Assembly (NCBI GenBank): GCA_029262115.1 | Contig: JAJCZZ010000084.1 | Span: 1 to 64,000 of the forward strand | Direction of reading: 5' to 3' | Origin: Gemmatimonadota bacterium | Lineage (GTDB): Bacteria; Gemmatimonadota; Gemmatimonadetes; Longimicrobiales; Gaopeijiaceae | DNA: 64,000 nt | Part shown: one piece after another, positions 1 through 60,929 of the stretch | Layout: each line of letters begins with the position of its first letter | How positions within the stretch are numbered: the stretch's first letter is position 1 | Translations under genes and position numbers: made by a program | Notes under the pieces: model-generated | What the model was told of the DNA's origin: nothing | Database searches by the model: none | Seen by the model: the letters and a program-made list of their open reading frames with translations, nothing else

Positions 1-874
1 GTCGGCGATCATGCCGGCGCGCAGGGCGGCACGGGCGCCCTGGATGAGCATCATGCGGAGGTAACTGTTGCCTCGCTTGGTGATGCGTCCCAGACGCCGA
101 GCGTGACCGGTGGAGTGCTCGCGGGGCGTGAGGCCGAGGTACGCGGCGAAGTGGCGACCGGATCGGAAGCGATGAATGTCACCCACCTGGGCGATCAGGG
201 CGGTGGCCGTGAGGACGCCGACTCCCGGAACACTCAGGAGGGCGAGCGCGGCCGGACTCTGCTTGGCGAGCCGTTCGAGTTCGGATTCGAGTTGCTTGGC
301 CCCGGCAGCGAGGTCCTCAATCTCGCGGAGCGACTCCAGGAGGGCGGCGCGCAGCGGTTCGGGGATCCGACCAGCATCGAGGGCGGCCTGGGCGTGGGGA
401 ATGACCTTGCGGGCCCCGAGGGGGATGATCACTCCGAATTCACGCAGATGCCCACGCACTGCGTTGATGCGTGCGATGCGGGTCTGCATGAGACCGCTGC
501 GCAGGCAATGCAGCGCGGCGATTGCCTGCTGCTGTTCGGACTTCACGGGCACCGCGTCGATCGCCTCGTTACGCGCGGCCTCGAGGATCGCCTTCGCATC
601 GGCCCGGTCGGTCTTGTTGCCGTCGCGGTAGCGTGCGACATCGCCGGGGTGAAAGAAGCGACACCGTGTGGCCCATGGCATTGAGCTCGCGACCCCAGAA
701 GTGAGCCGTGTCGCACGCCTCCATGAGAACATCCATCGGCTCGCGATCCTCGAAGAAGCGCCGGAACTGAGCTCGGCTCAACCGGTGCCGTTCCTTCACC
801 GATCCGGGCGTGTCGGACACCGCGACTTCGAACACTGACTTTGCCAGATCCACACCGGCCTGGGTACTGTGCAT
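1..874 (-). pseudogene. IS110-family transposase, frameshifted and cut by the window edge
   Basis: Translating the minus strand gives an IS110/IS1111-type transposase. The N-terminal DEDD domain starts with the GVDLAK motif, followed by an MEACDTAHFW glutamate block and the NKTDRADAKAI segment with the paired aspartates. The C-terminal IS116/IS110/IS902 domain shows SVPGVG, AYLGLTPREHSTG and RITKRGNSYLRMML before the window ends. The start at 874 opens MHSTQAGVDLAK. The frame breaks at about 661: after NAMGHTV one extra base shifts the reading, and RFFHPGDVARYRDG resumes in the next frame. IS110 transposases are not known to need frameshifting, so this copy is probably inactive, unless the extra base is a sequencing error. 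Confidence 0.85.
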
Positions 875-960
875 TTGAACTCCTCCTTCCGCTGTTGGCC
901 TTCGGGCCGTGATCGATGTACCGGCACACTGGTGCCGTCGGGAGGAGGAGTCCGTGCCGG
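1..960 (-). mobile_element. IS110-family insertion element, partial
   Basis: The element comprises the transposase gene and its upstream flank on the minus strand (875 to about 960). In the IS110 family the noncoding end next to the transposase gene encodes the bridge RNA that chooses target and donor sites. The flank here is GC-rich with several short inverted GTGCCG/CGGCAC motifs. The outer boundary is set only by where similarity to the attC-like repeat of 53.1 and 54.2 kb begins, so it is approximate. Confidence 0.5.
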
Positions 961-1104
961 TGCCGCTTCCGCTCGCTACGCTCGCTCCGGAGTACATGGC
1001 CCTGTAGCATATCTGCTAGGTAGGCGACGGTGGCGTGATCGCCCACGGTCGGTCCTTTGGGCTTTTCGCGGAGGGGCCACGTCGGCACCCTGGAACGTTA
1101 ACTG
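961..1104 (+). repeat. attC-like repeat A (left part missing)
   Basis: This stretch shares the core TCGCTCCGG (982-990) and the tract CCCTGTAGCATATCTGCTA with the repeat at 54.2 kb. Its right end, CGGCACCCTGGAACGTTA, closely matches the right end of the repeat at 53.1 kb and resembles the L'/R' end of an integron attC site, with GTTAACT at 1097-1103. The core-to-end distance (about 119 bases) is the same as in the minus-strand copy at 60.7-60.8 kb. The expected left half is absent, and IS110 sequence lies there instead. Confidence 0.5.
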
Positions 1105-51309: not shown

Positions 51310-52254
51310 ATGGCTCAGATTTCATCCCGATTCCGACGCGCGTCGGCGGCCGCGCTGTGCACCGCGCCGCTCCTCCTCATCGCACCTACCCTCGAGGCCC
51401 AGGAGTCGCGAGGCCCGAGGGTTCTCCGGCTGCCCGCGTCGACCCGGGCCATGGCTCTGGGCGATGCCTATATGATGAACGCCGGCCACGCGGACGCGGT
51501 GTTCTATCACCCCGCCCTGGTTCAGGGCGCGTCCGGCTTCGGACTGGACGTCCAGACCTGGTCGGGGGCGTCCAGCTCGTCGGCGGCGTCCGCCGCGGTG
51601 GCGTGGCTCGGCGGTTCGGTCGCGATCGGTTTGCAGACCCTCCACTTCGACGGGCCCCCGGGGGATCTGGGTGCCTATCCGGTCGGACAGGACCTCCTCT
51701 TCGACCGGGGCGCGACTCCCGTGTCGGAACGGGTGGCGTCGCTGGCCTACGCCCGGGAGATTTTCGGCGTGCGGGCCGGCCTGACGGCGAAGCTGCTCGA
51801 TGAGCGCTTCGATACGTCCAACGAGACCACGGGCGCGCTCGACGTGGGTCTGGCCAAGGGGCTCGGTCCAGTCACCGTGGGGCTGTCGGCCCGCAACCTC
51901 GGCCGGCACATGGACGTGGGCCGTGAAGACGTCTCCCTTCCGACGGCCTTCACCTTGGGGGTCGGCTCGTACGGGCGTCCCCTCGGTCCCCTGGACGTCG
52001 GTTTCACCGGCGCCCTGACCTACGAGTCGGACGAGTTGATTCCGGCTGGCGGTATCGAATTCGGATACTGGCCCGTACCCGGGCGGACCTTCGTGGGCCG
52101 CATCGGCGCCCGCCGCGTCGTCGAAGGCGATGGAAACCCACTCAGCGTCGGCGCCGCCTTCTGGGGCGACGACATCGTGCTGGAATGGGCCTACCGGCCG
52201 TTCGGCGGCACGGTCGACGACGGAACGCACCGATTCGGGGTGCGCTGGCGGTAG
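51310..52254 (+). CDS. PorV/PorQ-like outer-membrane protein
   Basis: This 314-residue exported protein (signal to LEAQES) has the PorV-like pattern RVLRLPASTRAMALGDAYMM, AVFYHPALVQGASGFGLDVQ and beta-hairpins of an outer-membrane barrel (GVGSYGRPLGPLDVGFTGAL) that end in an Arg-rich strand. In Bacteroidetes PorV binds type IX secretion cargo. Whether that applies here is unknown. It starts nine bases after NudC. Confidence 0.78.
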   Translation: MAQISSRFRRASAAALCTAPLLLIAPTLEAQESRGPRVLRLPASTRAMALGDAYMMNAGHADAVFYHPALVQGASGFGLDVQTWSGASSSSAASAAVAWLGGSVAIGLQTLHFDGPPGDLGAYPVGQDLLFDRGATPVSERVASLAYAREIFGVRAGLTAKLLDERFDTSNETTGALDVGLAKGLGPVTVGLSARNLGRHMDVGREDVSLPTAFTLGVGSYGRPLGPLDVGFTGALTYESDELIPAGGIEFGYWPVPGRTFVGRIGARRVVEGDGNPLSVGAAFWGDDIVLEWAYRPFGGTVDDGTHRFGVRWR

Positions 52255-52461
52255 GGGAAGGGTTGCGAGCGGCTGGAAGGCACTCCGCTGAGAACCTGAT
52301 AACGATTCACATCGTGGGTGATTGTTACCCACAACGTGCGTAGTTGTCGTGATCGAGCGTGGACGTCTGTAATCGCGAGTTATCGTTATGTGAAATTGAG
52401 CCTCAGGCTCGGGGTTCGACCGTGACGGGATGCTCCCGGGACTAAGTTTGTCGAACCGGAG

Positions 52462-52789
52462 CTAGCGGGCTGCGGCTTGCGGACCTCGGGACATGGCCTT
52501 GGCCAGGTCCTCCCGAGCGGCTCCAAGCTTCAACAACGATCGAACTAACAGGTCGATGGACACGGTTGGATCGGCGGCCTCCATCTTGGCCACACGGGAC
52601 TGACTGGACCCTACGATCCGGGCGACCTGTGTCTGATTGAGGTGCCGCTGGAGCCGTCGCGAGCGAAGATCCTGAGCGAGCGCGAGCTTGAACTCGATGA
52701 ACTCAGCCTCGGCGTCGGTTAGCTCGAGGAAGTCTTTAGCGTCGCCCCTATTTCGCGGCCGCGAGCTTTTTCCTGGTTTTGGTGTCCAT
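52462..52789 (-). pseudogene. XRE-family (HigA-like) antitoxin, frameshifted
   Basis: Minus-strand reading from the ATG at 52789 gives MDTKTRKKLAAAK and a stop at about 52750. The next frame continues DFLELTDAEAEFIEFKLALA, RRLQRHLNQTQVARIVGSSQ, SRVAKMEAADPTVSIDLLVR and SLLKLGAAREDLAKAM to the stop at 52462. This is a helix-turn-helix antitoxin of the XRE/HigA type, with the DNA-binding helix intact but cut off from its start by a frameshift. The toxin end lies just upstream, so an operon once stood here. Confidence 0.8.
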
Positions 52790-52799
52790 CGTCCTCTCC

Positions 52800-52878
52800 T
52801 TAGCTGGTGCGGGCGCGTCGATAGGCCCGGAGTCGATCCTTACAGACGTCGATCACATTCTTCGGTGTTGCCCGAGTC
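52800..52878 (-). pseudogene. HigB/RelE-type toxin, C-terminal fragment
   Basis: Minus-strand codons KKKTRATPKNVIDVCKDRLR then AYRRARTS to the stop at 52800 match the C-terminus of phage-derived Gp49-like/HigB toxins (…KTPKxxID…). A stop lies three codons upstream in frame, so only about 25 codons survive. It precedes the XRE antitoxin with the toxin-first order of HigBA operons. Confidence 0.6.
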
Positions 52879-52884
52879 TTCTTC

Positions 52885-53067
52885 TTGGTGTTTCGTCAGG
52901 GCCGAACCCACCACGGCGTCGTGTTGGTTCGCCTGCACGGCGTCGAGGCGGCGGAGAAGGCGCGGATCGCCGCTACGGCCATTGCTGATCATGTTGACGA
53001 ACTGCCTGGTGCCTTCTCGGTCATCGAGAGGGATCGCATCCGGATTAGGCTCGGCCGACCGAAGTAG
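52885..53067 (+). pseudogene. DUF5615 PIN-like toxin, C-terminal fragment
   Basis: Plus-strand VVLVRLHGVEAAEKARIAAT followed by ELPGAFSVIERDRIRIR matches the C-terminal end of DUF5615 PIN-like proteins, the toxin-like partner of small antitoxins. The N-terminal PIN core is missing. The fragment is joined head to tail with the HigB remnant, which runs the other way. Confidence 0.5.
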
Positions 53068-53100
53068 GGGTCGTGTCAGCCTTTAGACCGTGGCATCGCG

Positions 53101-53188
53101 TAACATCTGTGCCGCCTGCGCTCACTGCGTTCGCTCCGGAGAACACGGCTCGCGTTGCGAGCCGCGCCGGCACCCTTGAACGTTATCA
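53101..53188 (+). repeat. attC-like repeat C
   Basis: TAAC at 53101-53104 and GTTATCA at 53182-53188 form outer ends. GTGCCG/CGGCAC are inner complementary arms, and GGCTCGCGTTGCGAGCC makes a central hairpin. The core CTCACTGCGTTCGCTCCGG is shared with the repeat at 54.2 kb. The dyad design, length (about 85 bases) and position before a gene fit an integron attC site, though R' deviates from GTTRRRY. Confidence 0.5.
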
Positions 53189-53282
53189 GAAATTAATCAG
53201 AAATGCGCGGTGAGGATCTTAGTGGAATGGCCGGAAACGATGGTTCAGCGACCGGACGCAACGAACTGGTCAGGAGGCCTAC

Positions 53283-54158
53283 GTGATCGCACTGGGTCTT
53301 GTTGAGTCGGCATCGCTGTTCCTAGGAGAGCCTCTGCTTGGCGGAGAGAGTCTTGGCGGTGGCTATGAGTCAGAGGTGTTCCTGTCGAGTTGCAACGATA
53401 TTTCCTTGGTGCTTCATCTGAGCCCGGCATGGCGGACGACTGAGGAACTCGAGTGGGTGCATTCGGTCGTTAAGATGGTGCGTAAAGATGTTTCGGTGGC
53501 AGTTGGGCCCATCCAGAGGAAGAACCGAACTGTCTTCGAGTGGAATGGCCGGGGAGCTGCGCTATTTCCGTACGTATCCGGTAGAGCGGTACCTCGCGGC
53601 CACCCTGAGCTCGTTGAGGCGGCAGCTCGGCTCCTAGCACGGATTCATCTTGCCCTCGGTCGCCTTGACCCGCAGCCCCGGCCCGCCGGGGCCGGGAATC
53701 GGCCCCGGCCGGTTTCCGTCCCGCCGGAGCTTGAGGACAGTGAGTTGGATAAGTGGTGGAAAGGGCTAAGGAGCCGACAGCCCCGGACTGGATTGGTCCA
53801 CGGTGACTACTACGGTGCCAATCTGCTGGCCGACGACACCCAGGTAGTGGGGGTGATCGACTGGCACGAGATGGACGTCGGCCTGCTCGCCCTAGAGGTC
53901 GCGGGTGCATCATATGAATTCTGTCGAAACGACGCGCATGAACTTGATGACCATGCTGCACAGCGTTTCGTGGCAGCCTATCAGGCGAGTGGTGGGCCGC
54001 TGGCGGAATGGGAATGGGCGATGATCCCGAAGTTCCGAGCCTGGTGGGTTCGGCAAGACGCCCTTCGCTCCCTCTCTTACGGTCCCGATGGGGACCTCGA
54101 TTACGCTCGGAAGCAGATGCGCGCGTTCCACGTGTTAAGGGGTCGCGGATGGAAGTGA
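53283..54158 (+). CDS. APH-family (aminoglycoside phosphotransferase-like) kinase
   Basis: This 291-residue kinase-fold protein of the APH/choline kinase family has the catalytic loop GLVHGDYYGANLLADD (H-x-D-x5-N) and the metal-binding GVIDWHEMDVGLLALEV (D-W). The N-terminal ATP lobe is clear around GGGYESEVF. Substrates of the family include aminoglycosides, homoserine and sugars, so an antibiotic target is not proven. It lies between attC-like repeats C and D on the same strand, as a gene cassette would. Confidence 0.85.
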   Translation: MIALGLVESASLFLGEPLLGGESLGGGYESEVFLSSCNDISLVLHLSPAWRTTEELEWVHSVVKMVRKDVSVAVGPIQRKNRTVFEWNGRGAALFPYVSGRAVPRGHPELVEAAARLLARIHLALGRLDPQPRPAGAGNRPRPVSVPPELEDSELDKWWKGLRSRQPRTGLVHGDYYGANLLADDTQVVGVIDWHEMDVGLLALEVAGASYEFCRNDAHELDDHAAQRFVAAYQASGGPLAEWEWAMIPKFRAWWVRQDALRSLSYGPDGDLDYARKQMRAFHVLRGRGWK

Positions 54159-54197
54159 TGCAGTACGGGTTGAGCAGGCCACCGGAAGCGCCCTTAA

Positions 54198-54270
54198 GTT
54201 AACAAACGGGTATCGCCGGCACTCACTGTGTTCGCTCCGGTGAATCACGGCCCTGTAGCGTATCTGCTAA
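54198..54270 (+). repeat. attC-like repeat D
   Basis: GTTAACAAACG (54198-54208) is a good attC R''/L'' end, 40 bases after the kinase stop. It is followed by TCGCCGGCACTCACTGTG and the shared core TTCGCTCCGGTGAATCACGG, then CCCTGTAGCGTATCTGCTA, which also occurs at 1001-1017. A right end with GTTA is not visible, so the site may be partial. Confidence 0.45.
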
Positions 54271-54325
54271 TCGAGCAGTATTTCTGTGGTCGCCGGAAGT
54301 TCGGGTCGTATCGAGGTCTAGTGAG

Positions 54326-54344
54326 TAGCACAGTGAGTGTGCTA
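54326..54344. promoter_or_regulatory. Operator-like dyad of the HigBA operon
   Basis: TAGCACAGTGAGTGTGCTA has perfect 7-base arms around GTGAG and ends 10 bases before the HigB start. HigA proteins repress their own operon through such a dyad overlapping the promoter. Confidence 0.6.
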
Positions 54345-54354
54345 TCGTGCTAGT

Positions 54355-54651
54355 ATGGCGATAGAGTTCCGAAATCGGTGCGCCGAGGATGTCTTCAACG
54401 GTGTCGATTCCAAGGCCGCCCGAAAGCTATGCCCACCGGACCTTGTGAGTCGCGCACGGGAGAGGCTCTTCCTCTTGGATGACGCGGAAGTGCTTCAGGA
54501 TCTCCGCGTTCCTCCAAGGAACCGCCTTGAGACGCTCAAGGGAGATCGGGAGGGTCAGTCCAGCGTCCGAATCAACGATCAGTTCCGCATTTGTTTCCGG
54601 TGGACGGAGCGGGGGGCGATAGACGTTGAGATTGTCGACTATCACTCGTAG
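54355..54651 (+). CDS. higB: HigB toxin (RelE/ParE family)
   Basis: This 98-residue mRNA-cleaving toxin begins MAIEFRNRCAEDVFNG, with PPRNRLETLKGDREGQSSVR and INDQFRICFRWTERGAIDVE, then VEIVDYHS, the fully conserved HigB end. An upstream in-frame ATG is rejected because it lies inside the operator dyad. Toxin-first order with HigA is typical. Confidence 0.92.
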   Translation: MAIEFRNRCAEDVFNGVDSKAARKLCPPDLVSRARERLFLLDDAEVLQDLRVPPRNRLETLKGDREGQSSVRINDQFRICFRWTERGAIDVEIVDYHS

Positions 54652-54667
54652 CGAGAGGAAAAGGAGA

Positions 54668-54991
54668 ATGGTCAGGGTCCCCACACATCGCCCGCCTACC
54701 CACGCCGGTGAGATGCTCTTACGGGAGTTCCTGGAGCCTTTGGGAATCACCCAGACCCAGCTCGCTGAGCGGATGGAGATCCCCCTCCAGCGGATCAACA
54801 GCCTCGTGAACGGCAGGCGCGGCATCACCCCGGACACGGCCCTGCGCCTGTCCAAGGTCTTTGGCACCACCCCCGGGTTCTGGATGAATCACCAGCTGCG
54901 TTGGGACCTCTTCCATGCAGAGCGTGATGCGAAGAAGACATTGGAGCGCATCGAGCCCGTTCCCAGGCGAGACCTCGTTGGGATCACCTGA
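54668..54991 (+). CDS. higA: HigA antitoxin (XRE family)
   Basis: This 107-residue antitoxin has THAGEMLLREFLEPLGITQT, then QLAERMEIPLQRINSLVNGR and RGITPDTALRLSKVFGTTPG, the HigA helix-turn-helix. The ATG at 54668 has an AGGAG-type ribosome site and is 17 bases after HigB. The operon is intact, unlike the decayed pair nearby. Confidence 0.93.
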   Translation: MVRVPTHRPPTHAGEMLLREFLEPLGITQTQLAERMEIPLQRINSLVNGRRGITPDTALRLSKVFGTTPGFWMNHQLRWDLFHAERDAKKTLERIEPVPRRDLVGIT

Positions 54992-55138: not shown

Positions 55139-56362
55139 CTACTCCTTCACAATCCGATACCGCGACACGGCCTGGACGTCATTCCGATCCAGTTCGGAGC
55201 ACAGCAGATACTCTCCATCCACGTCCAACAGTCGACACCCGCCCGGGCTCTCGACCCTCCCGAGAACGAAGCCGTCGGGGAGAAGGACTGTAAAGAACTG
55301 CGGCGGAGCACCTCCCCGCTCGTACGATCCGAGCCACACCGTCCCGTCTCGTCCAACCGTCATCGACGAAAAGACCGGCTGAAAATCCGCGACCGACCGT
55401 TCGAGCTCGAGCGCGTCTTCCATGCGCTTCAGGACCGCCGGCGCTGCCTCGCGGTGCCCGCTTGCACGATCGAGATAGGCGGCCTTGTGTGCGGCCCACC
55501 ATTCATCGTCGACGGCCACCCGCTCCGGCGCCCAACGTGCGACCTGACGTAGTTCTCCATCCAGCCCGTACCAGCGAACCTCCGCCTCCGGCGAGGCCGC
55601 GTAGACGAAACGGTCTTCGGTGGCATCGACCTCGCCTCGCTCCCCGGTGCTTCGGGTTGCCGCAAAGCCGCCGGGACCGGCATACGTCGCGATCATCGGG
55701 AACCAGCCGACGGTGTCCATCGGCGCGGCGCCGTCCCATCCAGTTGCCACGACGGGGCCGTCCCGCCAGGGGATGAATGCAGGGTCGGGCGAGGCAGACC
55801 AAGCGCCGACATCCATGACAATCCGCCCGGTAGGCGACGCCACCATCGGCCGAAGGGAATACGGCGCGCGAGATTCCCGGCGGAAGGTCCGCCCGAGCGA
55901 TCCCGTCGCGTCGAATACCGCCCAGCGTCCGTCTCCTCCCACGGTCAGGACGGAATCTCCCGGTAGCAGGACGGCCCCCCGAAGTCCTCCACCGATCTCC
56001 GACGGACCGTCTCCGCGCCCGCCGAAAACCGCCTCTACGTCCCCACCCGGCCCCACGACGTAGACGATGTCCGACCGGGAATCCGTCACCAGGGCGCCGC
56101 CGTCGCTACGCAGAGCACCGGACCCGAGCCCCTCGAACTCCGGGCCGTCGTCACTCCAACCGACGCGCCAATCCGGTCGGCTCGCGACCGTCCAGGGAGC
56201 CAGCTGCGTCCCGCTACCCGCCGTCTGCACCACCCGCACGTCGGCGGAATCTGTAACGGTAGGCAGGGCCACAGACGGCGAGGGGTCGGCGGCGCAGCCG
56301 CCGAGCGCGAAGCCGCCGAGGAGACAGAGGAGGACGGTGGACGGTTGGGTCGGGTGTCTCAT
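55139..56362 (-). CDS. 6-bladed beta-propeller lipoprotein
   Basis: This 407-residue lipoprotein (signal with lipobox LGGCAAD) has the propeller family pattern FGGRGDGPSEIGGGLRGAVL, GALRSDGGALVTDSRSDIVY and SSMTVGRDGTVWLGSYERGG. The start at 56362 (MRHPTQPS) is the first position giving a normal signal. The frame is open further upstream without homology. The function is unknown. Confidence 0.8.
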   Translation of the reverse strand: MRHPTQPSTVLLCLLGGFALGGCAADPSPSVALPTVTDSADVRVVQTAGSGTQLAPWTVASRPDWRVGWSDDGPEFEGLGSGALRSDGGALVTDSRSDIVYVVGPGGDVEAVFGGRGDGPSEIGGGLRGAVLLPGDSVLTVGGDGRWAVFDATGSLGRTFRRESRAPYSLRPMVASPTGRIVMDVGAWSASPDPAFIPWRDGPVVATGWDGAAPMDTVGWFPMIATYAGPGGFAATRSTGERGEVDATEDRFVYAASPEAEVRWYGLDGELRQVARWAPERVAVDDEWWAAHKAAYLDRASGHREAAPAVLKRMEDALELERSVADFQPVFSSMTVGRDGTVWLGSYERGGAPPQFFTVLLPDGFVLGRVESPGGCRLLDVDGEYLLCSELDRNDVQAVSRYRIVKE

Positions 56363-56508
56363 ACAGGATAGGGGACGAGGGCACTGGATTCCGTATTCTA
56401 TGCGGGAGGCTCCGGCTATCGCCACCACGCACCGATATCACGTTTGTAATTCCGCCGGCCGCCTGTACTGGTCGCCGGGCGCCGCACCCGAAAGCCGCGA
56501 TCTTCCCC

Positions 56509-58452
56509 CTACCGCCCCTCCACCCGCGCCGACAGGAACGCTGGATCCAGGTCGCTGAAGCCGATCTGGTCGACCACGACCTCTCCGGCCACCGCTTGAT
56601 CGAAGACGAGTCGGACCGCTTCGAGCCGGCGAACGTCGAGCGCGGGGTTGGCCGCGACGAAGTCGCCCAGAGGAATCGAGTACGTCTGCAGCACCATCTC
56701 CCAGAGCGTCTGGAAGCGTCGGTTTTCCTGGTCGCGGCGGCGGGAGATCGTGGTCTTCAAGGGGCGGCGCACCGGCCCGTAGGCCGACAGGATCACACTG
56801 GCCGTCCCGCCTGAGGCGTCCCGGACCTCCACGCTGAGGTCGACCGGGGGCTTCTCATCGTCCTCGTCGTCTCCACCCCCCGGACGCCCTCGACCGCCGC
56901 CGCTCGATTCCTCCGACTTGGTCGTGTCCGGGACCGGATCCGCACGGGGGCCCGGCAGGTTCTCGGTGGCAGCAAGAGTGAAGTCGAGCGTGGTGCCGGC
57001 CGAAAGCGCCCACCGCCGGGCGGATCCCGCGGGGAGGGCGACCTCGAAGGCGGCCGGTGGGCCCATGCGCGTGGTATCCGCTCCCGCAATCCGATTGTTC
57101 CAGCCCAACCACACCGCCTGGTTCTCCTGACTGGCGGACGTGTTGTTCCGGTTGGCGGAGCGAAGCTCGAGGGTGGCCTCGCGCCATACGGCCAACGAGT
57201 CGCCGCGCAGCCGCACGCCCGCCTCGGTGCCGGAGGTGACGTCGATATCCTCTTCGAAGGTGGCGAGCGGACGGAAGTCGCTCGTCTCGAAGCGCGTCAC
57301 GTACATCGTCTTGGGAAGCCACTCGCCCACGACCCTGTGATCCCGGAACATGGGCAGGTATCGCTTATCTCCACGAAGAACCGTCTCGAGGAACGCGGAC
57401 ACGTAGAGCTCGGCAAAGCGGCGCTGATCCTCTCCGGGAATGAGCGTCCTCAGGTCGAGAATCCGACCACTCCGGGGACCGTTGTCGTGCGCGCCCCAGA
57501 CCGTATTCCACTGCCCGTGGTTCGCACGATACACGTAGATGGCCGACTTGAAGTGGAAGTCATCGTCTGTGAAGCGGAGGCGGTTGTAGATGCGCAGGCC
57601 GTGGAAGCTCGTCACGTCACCGTCGTGGGAGCCGTGAAAGACCAGATAGCTCACATTCTCCGTAGCGACTTTTCGACCGGTCGGGAGGTACTGACCGTCC
57701 ACCGGCGCGATCGAAACGATGCCCTTGATGTCAAAACCGAAGTCGAAGTCGAGCGTGGCGTCGTCCGGGTAGTGGCTCAGCGTGTTGAAGGCGGCCGCGT
57801 TCGCCACGGCCTCCCCACCCCGGGAGTGGCCCATGAGCACGATATTGCCCATGTCGACCTTCCCTGTGAATGGGTTACCTGCTTCTCCGGTCCAGTCACG
57901 GAAGAGCCCGAGATGCCTCAACAAGAACCAGCCGCGCGCGTCGTTCTCTCCGCGGATGCCCCCGTTGATGAAGTTCTCGTCCACGCTCGCCAGGATGTAG
58001 CCGCGGCTCGCCAGGAGCTCGCCCAGGTAGTCGTACCCCGGGTCGGAGAAGTCCTTCATGTTGTGGTTTCCGTGCACCACCAACACGAGGGGAAACGGTC
58101 CGGCACCGTCGGGATACCAGACGCGTGCGTTCAGCGGCATCTCCTTGGGCGTGAAACCCCAGTAGTCGTTCCGCTCGTCCGCGGACTGGCCGAGGCTGAC
58201 CAGCTTGGACGCATCGACCGCTTCGGTCGTGATCGCAACCGAATCGCGGTACTCGGCTCGGTTCTTGTCGGTCCCGCTTCCGTAGTAGAGCGTCAGGACG
58301 TCGTACCGGCCGGTCGCACCGGGGTCGGGAGCGTCCAACGCCTGATGGGCGAGGACGGTCGGCGCGTCGTTCGGGCTGAACTCGAGGGCGGGAGCACACG
58401 AGGCAAGCAGGGCCAGAGCCGCCGTCGCGGCATTTCGAGATCGGTTGGTCAT
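56509..58452 (-). CDS. Exported alpha/beta hydrolase with disordered linker
   Basis: This 647-residue exported alpha/beta-hydrolase-fold protein has a lipoprotein-like signal (ALALLASCAPALEF). The hydrolase half contains FPLVLVVHGNHNMKDFSDPG, the nucleophile elbow GHSRGGEAVANAA and the VFHGSHDGDVT acid/histidine region. A beta-rich second part is interrupted by a linker of acidic Gly/Asp/Glu repeats (residues about 520-545). Such proteins can act on esters, but the substrate is unknown. Confidence 0.8.
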   Translation of the reverse strand: MTNRSRNAATAALALLASCAPALEFSPNDAPTVLAHQALDAPDPGATGRYDVLTLYYGSGTDKNRAEYRDSVAITTEAVDASKLVSLGQSADERNDYWGFTPKEMPLNARVWYPDGAGPFPLVLVVHGNHNMKDFSDPGYDYLGELLASRGYILASVDENFINGGIRGENDARGWFLLRHLGLFRDWTGEAGNPFTGKVDMGNIVLMGHSRGGEAVANAAAFNTLSHYPDDATLDFDFGFDIKGIVSIAPVDGQYLPTGRKVATENVSYLVFHGSHDGDVTSFHGLRIYNRLRFTDDDFHFKSAIYVYRANHGQWNTVWGAHDNGPRSGRILDLRTLIPGEDQRRFAELYVSAFLETVLRGDKRYLPMFRDHRVVGEWLPKTMYVTRFETSDFRPLATFEEDIDVTSGTEAGVRLRGDSLAVWREATLELRSANRNNTSASQENQAVWLGWNNRIAGADTTRMGPPAAFEVALPAGSARRWALSAGTTLDFTLAATENLPGPRADPVPDTTKSEESSGGGRGRPGGGDDEDDEKPPVDLSVEVRDASGGTASVILSAYGPVRRPLKTTISRRRDQENRRFQTLWEMVLQTYSIPLGDFVAANPALDVRRLEAVRLVFDQAVAGEVVVDQIGFSDLDPAFLSARVEGR

Positions 58453-58579
58453 AGCCGAAAGACTAGGTCGAAACAGTGGAGACCGGCAACGGCAGGCCCT
58501 CGCCTGACCCATCTCCCTTGGACCCGCCCCGGCCGTCCTGGGTAGCGTTGGCTCCCACTACCGACACCAGGAGAAGTTC

Positions 58580-60570: not shown

Positions 60571-60718
60571 GAGAAGTCCTCTCGTTGGAAATGAGCTAGG
60601 CATGAGGCGCTCTATCTGCGCCCATACCATCAGACGGACATACCGTGTGCTTTTCTCGCTCAGGGGCTGCGGCTACCCCGGTAGCTCGAAGACAGAAGGT
60701 GGCTCAGAACGGCGGACG

Positions 60719-60838
60719 CTAACGTTCAGAGTTACCGGCGCAGCCCCCCGCAACTCCGGTTGAGGCTCCACTTCCGCTGACCCTTGTGCCGTCGTCCAGC
60801 CTACCCGAGACGTTTGGGGTCGTGATCCTCCGAAGCGA
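60719..60838 (-). repeat. attC-like repeat E (minus orientation)
   Basis: On the minus strand the core TCGCTTCGGAGGATCACGAC (60838-60819) matches the cores at 982, 53.1 and 54.2 kb, and the right end GGTAACTCTGAACGTTAGC lies 119 bases further on, the same spacing as repeat A. GTTAGCG at the end fits an attC R' (GTTRRRY-like). The left end is missing or diverged. Repeat A faces plus, this one minus. Confidence 0.5.
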
Positions 60839-60929
60839 GCGAAGCGAACCGGGCGCGGTGGCTGACGCGGCAGTGACAAGGCGGTTCGGTTGGTCGATCA
60901 CAAGGGTGAGAAGCGAACCAAGACTGGAG

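Follow-up and report, generated by a model that had tools for sequence, protein, structure and literature searches.

A 64-kb stretch of DNA (64,000 nucleotides, the window) contains what is probably a decayed, integrase-less cluster of gene cassettes derived from an integron-type system. It appears that this system is run by an Xer-like tyrosine recombinase that lacks the I2 insert of the integron integrase IntI and carries a HARP-like domain. We give this reading as a whole a probability of about 0.7.

Attachment sites and the inserted block

An earlier note on this DNA described two repeats, C and D, that share a core and flank an APH-family kinase gene in one orientation, and the coordinates confirm the description. 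The core reads CTCACTGCGTTCGCTCCGG at 53121-53139 in repeat C and CTCACTGTGTTCGCTCCGG at 54222-54240 in repeat D, on the same strand and on either side of the kinase gene (53283-54158). In repeat C, the outer boxes TAAC (53101) and GTTA (53182-53185) and the inner arms GTGCCG and CGGCAC accompany a central hairpin, CGGCTCGC-GTT-GCGAGCCG. The relevant features of the window are as follows; R1 is a covariance model of the sites.

1-732, minus strand: IS110-family transposase (PF02371, E 8.3e-27)
952-1103, plus strand: site E, a long attC-type site near the contig start, without a 5' TAAC end, beside the IS110-family gene (R1, 46.7 bits, E 3.1e-9)
52376-52387, plus strand: boundary-like short site CGCGAGTTATCG, candidate left edge of the block, 122 bp past the stop of the gene at 51310-52254 (GAGTTA motif; putative role)
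52462-52839, minus strand: HTH (XRE-type) antitoxin-like gene, probably frameshifted, a putative cassette remnant (HTH_3, E 9.8e-7; frame broken near the start)
52825-53067, plus strand: remains of the C-terminal part of a toxin-like protein, DUF5615 region (PF18480, E 0.013, a match below the cut-off that spans only profile positions 61-109)
53097-53188, plus strand: site C, a full attC-type recombination site, TAAC..GTGCCG..hairpin..CGGCAC..TTGAAC-GTTA (R1, which does not include site C, 71.7 bits, E 1.5e-15)
53283-54158, plus strand: APH-family kinase, cassette gene (PF01636, E 8e-22)
54196-54330, plus strand: site D, a long-type attC site of which the 5' half is kept and the 3' half has decayed, without a GTTA end (R1, 18.1 bits, E 0.05)
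54337-54991, plus strand: gene pair for a HigB-like toxin and an HTH antitoxin, probably the following cassette and lacking a 3' site of its own (PF05015, E 1.1e-14; HTH_3, E 2.3e-13)
55139-56428, minus strand: gene of an unplaced family within the block (open reading frame)

Site C is an attC-type site. Its outer boxes end in AAC and start with GTT, its inner arms are inverted repeats, and its bottom strand forms a hairpin that is better (z -2.30) than the fold of the top strand (z -1.37). R1 was built from 12 sites on other contigs of the genome, with every window site excluded, and stood in for the attC model of IntegronFinder. Its search of the 64-kb window recovered site C with the score listed above, confirming the attC design that had been proposed for repeat C. 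Further evidence that R1 describes a pairing comes from the changes among its sites: in 29 cells both partners had changed, where shuffles gave 11.3 and sliding the partner gave 2-7. Site C is 88-92% identical to both sites on contig C68. Rfam searched over the whole window at gathering thresholds gave no match.

Repeat D, described in the earlier note as beginning with a good attC left end, is only the 5' half of a site. It starts with TTAACAAACGGGTATCGCCGGC at 54198 and is 82.5% identical over 63 bp to a long site on contig C45; in alignment A6 it follows the 5' half of this longer site variant, and then similarity is lost. However, a search for a matching 3' half found none, the set of attC features seen in site C is incomplete in repeat D, and its fold is not significant (z -0.40). 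With repeat D reduced to half a site, the kinase cassette no longer has a complete attC of its own.

The kinase itself is an accessory, cassette-like gene, absent from 58 relatives, so that only this genome among 59 has it. Its score with homoserine-kinase models is far below the cut-off (59.3 against 271 bits), and its match to macrolide kinase structures reaches only E 0.004. The gene at 51310-52254 is present in 27 of the 58 relatives. In relatives (loci L296, L297, L298, L300 and L301), this gene and a hydrolase-like gene (56509-58512 in the window) are convergent and 20-50 bp apart, and in the window an inserted block of 4.25 kb separates these two conserved genes.

Several pieces of this 4.25-kb block have homologues beside sites or inside arrays elsewhere. 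The antitoxin region (52492-52887) is 77% identical to DNA beside other sites on contig C86 and 75% identical to a cassette in an array of genome G042. The stretch 52884-53103 is 90% identical to C86 at 36.3 kb, and the HigBA region (54509-54920) is 67-69% identical to two places in an array of genome G098 and to one site-bearing locus of G112. The absence of the kinase in relatives, the cassette homologues in arrays, and the motif at the left edge together argue for a block that consists of decayed cassettes. In other words, judging from sequence relationships, the block is a decayed integrase-less cassette cluster, which would comprise site C, the kinase cassette, half-site D, the HigBA cassette, and the antitoxin and toxin remnants. 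The earlier suggestion of an integron cassette stands as far as the attC-type site C and the cassette-like kinase are concerned, but the block is decayed and integrase-less and not an intact array. No IntI is present in the window, as had been noted. The region at 53-54 kb has a full site and a half-site, and a further site is ~52 kb away, where a CALIN has at least two attC sites and no integrase.

Could the kinase block have arrived by another route, such as homologous recombination or an IS, with the sites as mere passengers? Site D is broken and pieces of the block match different places in the genome (C86 twice), which would make the block a mosaic, and both facts lend this route some weight. 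Nevertheless, site C is complete, intact arrays contain homologues of the flanking accessory genes, and a boundary-like motif is found at 52376. We therefore regard such an arrival as unlikely and prefer the reading of a decayed cassette cluster.

Site E lies at the other end of the window, and a 56-bp edge at the IS110-family gene (900-953) shares 93% identity with DNA adjoining attC-type sites on contig C16. This match and the missing TAAC end of site E suggest a putative IS110-type element that targets attC-type sites. IS1111-attC elements are known elements of a comparable kind. Behind site E (1195-2453) there are an addiction-module antitoxin gene (PF09720), a Fic/Doc gene, and a MazE-like antitoxin gene on the minus strand, and GTTAACAAACG at 1733 resembles a further truncated site. 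A weak candidate site on the minus strand at 60714-60875, with a CGGTAACTCTGAACGTTAGCG 3' end, was found by pattern and missed by the covariance model.

The site family extends through the genome. If up to two mismatches are allowed, the 19-base core is present six times in 5.45 Mb and a reversed-pattern control once, which is above chance, and further copies of the core do exist. Two of the six are on the 3.4-kb contig C68 and one is at the end of C45. Both C68 copies are complete sites that bound one gene, the second with GGCTAAC..GTTAGCC ends; downstream is a large permease-like gene, and the contig then breaks within an apparent third site. R1 found about 25 matches in the whole genome (E < 0.01), spread over many contigs; the dispersed copies are put at about 20-25, several of them single. 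Behind its recombinase gene (L021), contig C49 ends in a stretch that C68 has in reverse complement at its start (L017); on C68 the stretch ends at GTTCAAC, ahead of the first site. This may be an assembly break caused by an inverted first cassette or a repeat.

The recombinase associated with the sites

Which integrase goes with these sites? The genome has a true IntI on contig C58 (349 bits, over the cut-off), with its own linked hairpin site. C29 and C49 carry two more tyrosine recombinases, whose matches to the IntI model leave out its middle part and cover only what lies on either side. In 14 of 21 I2-less genes, the spacing from GKGxKxR to HxxRH is 66 residues (range 66-73); the figure is 65-66 for Bacteroidota, 72-73 for the two Xer genes, and 107 for IntI. 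This short spacing means that the I2 insert is absent; the Xer-like protein is ~41 residues shorter than IntI at the I2 position. In a tree, the IntI rows form one clade (100/100 support) and the I2-less rows fall outside it, in an order relative to IntI that the tree leaves unsettled. The best NCBIfam score of the C49 protein is with NF040815 (recomb_XerA_Arch; 221.4 bits, cut-off 220), which is described as a site-specific tyrosine recombinase/integron integrase. A Foldseek search with the whole model gave tyrosine recombinases only, among the matches listed, the best being 2a3v, an integron integrase structure.

The I2-less recombinase has an additional N-terminal domain, which was modeled with a pLDDT of 88.7. 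Its best PDB profile match is the HARP domain of SMARCAL1 (4o66, E 0.0045; next match 0.37), and Foldseek gave weak matches to XPB and HARP (E 0.05 to 0.1), so the assignment as HARP-like is a weak one. SMARCAL1/HARP acts on branched replication-fork DNA (PMC4035279). Because of this activity, it is attractive to think that the HARP-like domain might read the folded sites. At another locus (L022, on C71), the C-terminus of a tyrosine recombinase, related in sequence to the I2-less recombinases, is followed by an IS91-type-like transposase frame; this recombinase probably belongs to another element.

Evidence that ties the site family to the I2-less recombinase comes from the position and strand of the sites. 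On C29, GAGTTAGG is found ~140 bases past the stop of the recombinase gene and is followed by a site of the C/D family; integrase-linked arrays, whose absence would have counted against the hypothesis of the earlier note, are present elsewhere in the genome. Among 154 genomes of the order that were searched, a relative of the C49 protein occurs in 36, R1 sites in 24, and an IntI over the cut-off in 26. At 24 loci, 22 of them with the I2-less recombinase, R1 found 18 sites, all of which are 3' of the recombinase gene and on its strand. In G042, a one-contig genome, the I2-less recombinase gene is succeeded by eight R1 sites with toxin-antitoxin-like cassettes between them; G042 has no IntI match at E 1e-50.

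A further scan relied on geometry, free of sequence beyond YAAC, an exact 8-base arm pair, and GTT. On the coding strand downstream of the order's I2-less genes, it found 14 sites where shuffled sequence gave 0.4; the 56 kb upstream had none. The four sites on the opposite strand downstream are expected for near-palindromes. Behind other Xer-like genes, there was one site against 1.8 shuffled. Of 21 draft cases, 17 have the 3' end of the recombinase gene within 2 kb of a contig end and 2 have the 5' end there, the bias that repeats behind the gene would produce; with many of these genes at contig ends, their arrays are not seen.

Could the sites be ordinary attC sites of the genome's IntI integron, with IntI acting in trans and the I2-less recombinase a bystander? 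The full IntI on C58 with its own hairpin site would be available, and IntI presence is also associated with R1 sites (Fisher p 0.0014), which are found in 8 of the 13 genomes with both integrases. The association with the I2-less recombinase is seen in 15 of 36 genomes that have it against 9 of 118 that do not (Fisher p 7e-6, the genomes not being independent). Seven genomes with R1 matches, most of them drafts, have neither integrase at the thresholds used. Against a role of IntI, R1 found no site of the C/D family around 27 IntI-type genes of the order, and arrays stand behind the I2-less gene in genomes without a detected IntI. Moreover, IntI-linked sites (C58 and G105) end in GAGTCGTTAG, not TTGAACGTTA, and have AGAGTCGTTAG as their 3' end, a comparison that is thin because such sites were recognized in two loci only. 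The C58 IntI was set aside as the partner on these grounds, and its action in trans appears rather improbable. The partner of the C/D family is most probably an enzyme other than IntI. The idea of an integron remnant, raised in the earlier note, is thus retained for the decayed cassettes, but most probably not with IntI as their integrase.

It is very improbable that the repeats are a REP- or MITE-like hairpin element unrelated to integrons, dispersed in the genome and near tyrosine recombinases by chance. The about 20-25 copies over many contigs, several single, would suit such an element. Against it, the copies are biased in strand and position behind the recombinase, successive sites on one strand have toxin-antitoxin cassettes between them, pairing is conserved while sequence varies, and the sites have TAAC/GTTA ends and an AACGTT core.

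A boundary motif, [CA]GAGTTA, also accompanies the I2-less genes, with 10 occurrences downstream on the coding strand against 1, 0, and 1 in the other three compartments. Inside the G098 array, the short motif AAACGAGTTATC turns up repeatedly between cassettes (L175 at 3920, 5333, and others). Given these occurrences within an array, the motif is a tentative attI at most and may also mark a second type of cassette junction, one that has no hairpin.

Bacteroidota relatives and the proposed mechanism

When named genomes were scanned, relatives that carry the N-terminal domain turned up in Bacteroidota, together with a single one in Undinarchaeales. Behind the recombinase genes of Arenibacter and Winogradskyella, there are repeats of the form CAAC-AATGGCTATAA..TTGC....GCAA..TCATAGCC-GAAAC-CGTTG, whose plan is that of the C-type sites but whose sequence is different. 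R1 gave no match in the Bacteroidota loci, indicating that the sites there are another sequence family. The geometry scan found 10 sites in Bacteroidota against 2.4 shuffled, and 1 upstream in 167 kb. The Bacteroidota alignment (A4) was chosen by exact arm complementarity and its inner-helix pairing is partly by construction; the claim for Bacteroidota rests on the repeats found without a complementarity filter and on the geometry scan. Near the 3' ends of L222 and L224, close to Bacteroidota recombinase genes, the contigs end in group II intron-like 5' ends (GTGCGCCTCTCACACC) that resemble those of group IIC-attC introns. They are unconfirmed, as Rfam gave one tRNA only in seven Bacteroidota loci.

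How might the cassettes move? By analogy with integrons, the cassette integrase would be the Xer-like recombinase encoded on both C29 and C49. Each site would form a hairpin from its bottom strand, so that the route would be a single-stranded one, and the recombinase would cut beside the GTT in AAC-GTTA. Circular cassettes would then enter at the boundary site behind the integrase gene, an entry that would place the array downstream on the strand of the integrase. Some cassettes may enter secondary places, such as the block in the window, and decay there. More broadly, we consider it somewhat probable that there is a second widespread class of integron, present in Bacteroidota as well as in the order to which the window belongs. 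Its hairpin-bounded cassettes would be captured by an I2-less, Xer-like recombinase that has a HARP-like N-terminal domain, and the class would possibly be near the source lineage of IntI.

Comparison with known systems

IntegronFinder recognizes IntI by PF00589 together with an IntI-specific domain (PMC9668308), and arrays without IntI are termed CALIN (PMC9668308; PMC9024848). I2 was reported to be necessary for IntI1 activity and not found in other proteins (PMC7790495), and its origin has been called a chicken-egg paradox (PMC4792948). No description of an I2-less integron was found in the open-licence literature, a search that left preprints and most subscription papers outside, so a prior description is possible. 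If the proposed system is real, attC-like sites can be used without I2, and this can be examined in living systems. Surveys in which the I2 domain serves to define an integron (PMC9668308) would overlook these arrays or list them as integrase-less CALINs, and consequently part of the CALINs may have an integrase of their own.

The sites resemble those of sedentary chromosomal integrons and CALINs in their TAAC/GTTA outer boxes, inner arms, and central hairpin, and the likeness extends to toxin-antitoxin-rich arrays, genome-specific site families, and integrase-less clusters. Unlike in sedentary integrons, the linked integrase is without the IntI-specific domain and its gene is read toward the array. 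An IntI-type integron has an I2-bearing IntI next to its array, whereas the recombinase linked here is without the insert. Of the general plan of an integron, the integrase and a one-orientation array are seen; a boundary motif, the candidate primary insertion site, is found behind several integrase genes and also within the G098 array.

The recombinase shares with IntI the tyrosine recombinase core, and the best Foldseek match of its model is the integron integrase structure 2a3v, but it differs from IntI in the absent I2 insert (66 against 107 residues), the extra HARP-like N-terminal domain, and its separation from the IntI clade. NF040815, its highest NCBIfam score, relates the C49 protein to XerA/XerC/XerD. 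In contrast, the housekeeping Xer genes of this genome have no such N-terminal domain and are distant in the tree, and other Xer-like genes have no site arrays behind them. Likewise, the window kinase is joined to the APH superfamily by its PF01636 match, although it matches the homoserine kinase models and macrolide kinase structures only poorly.
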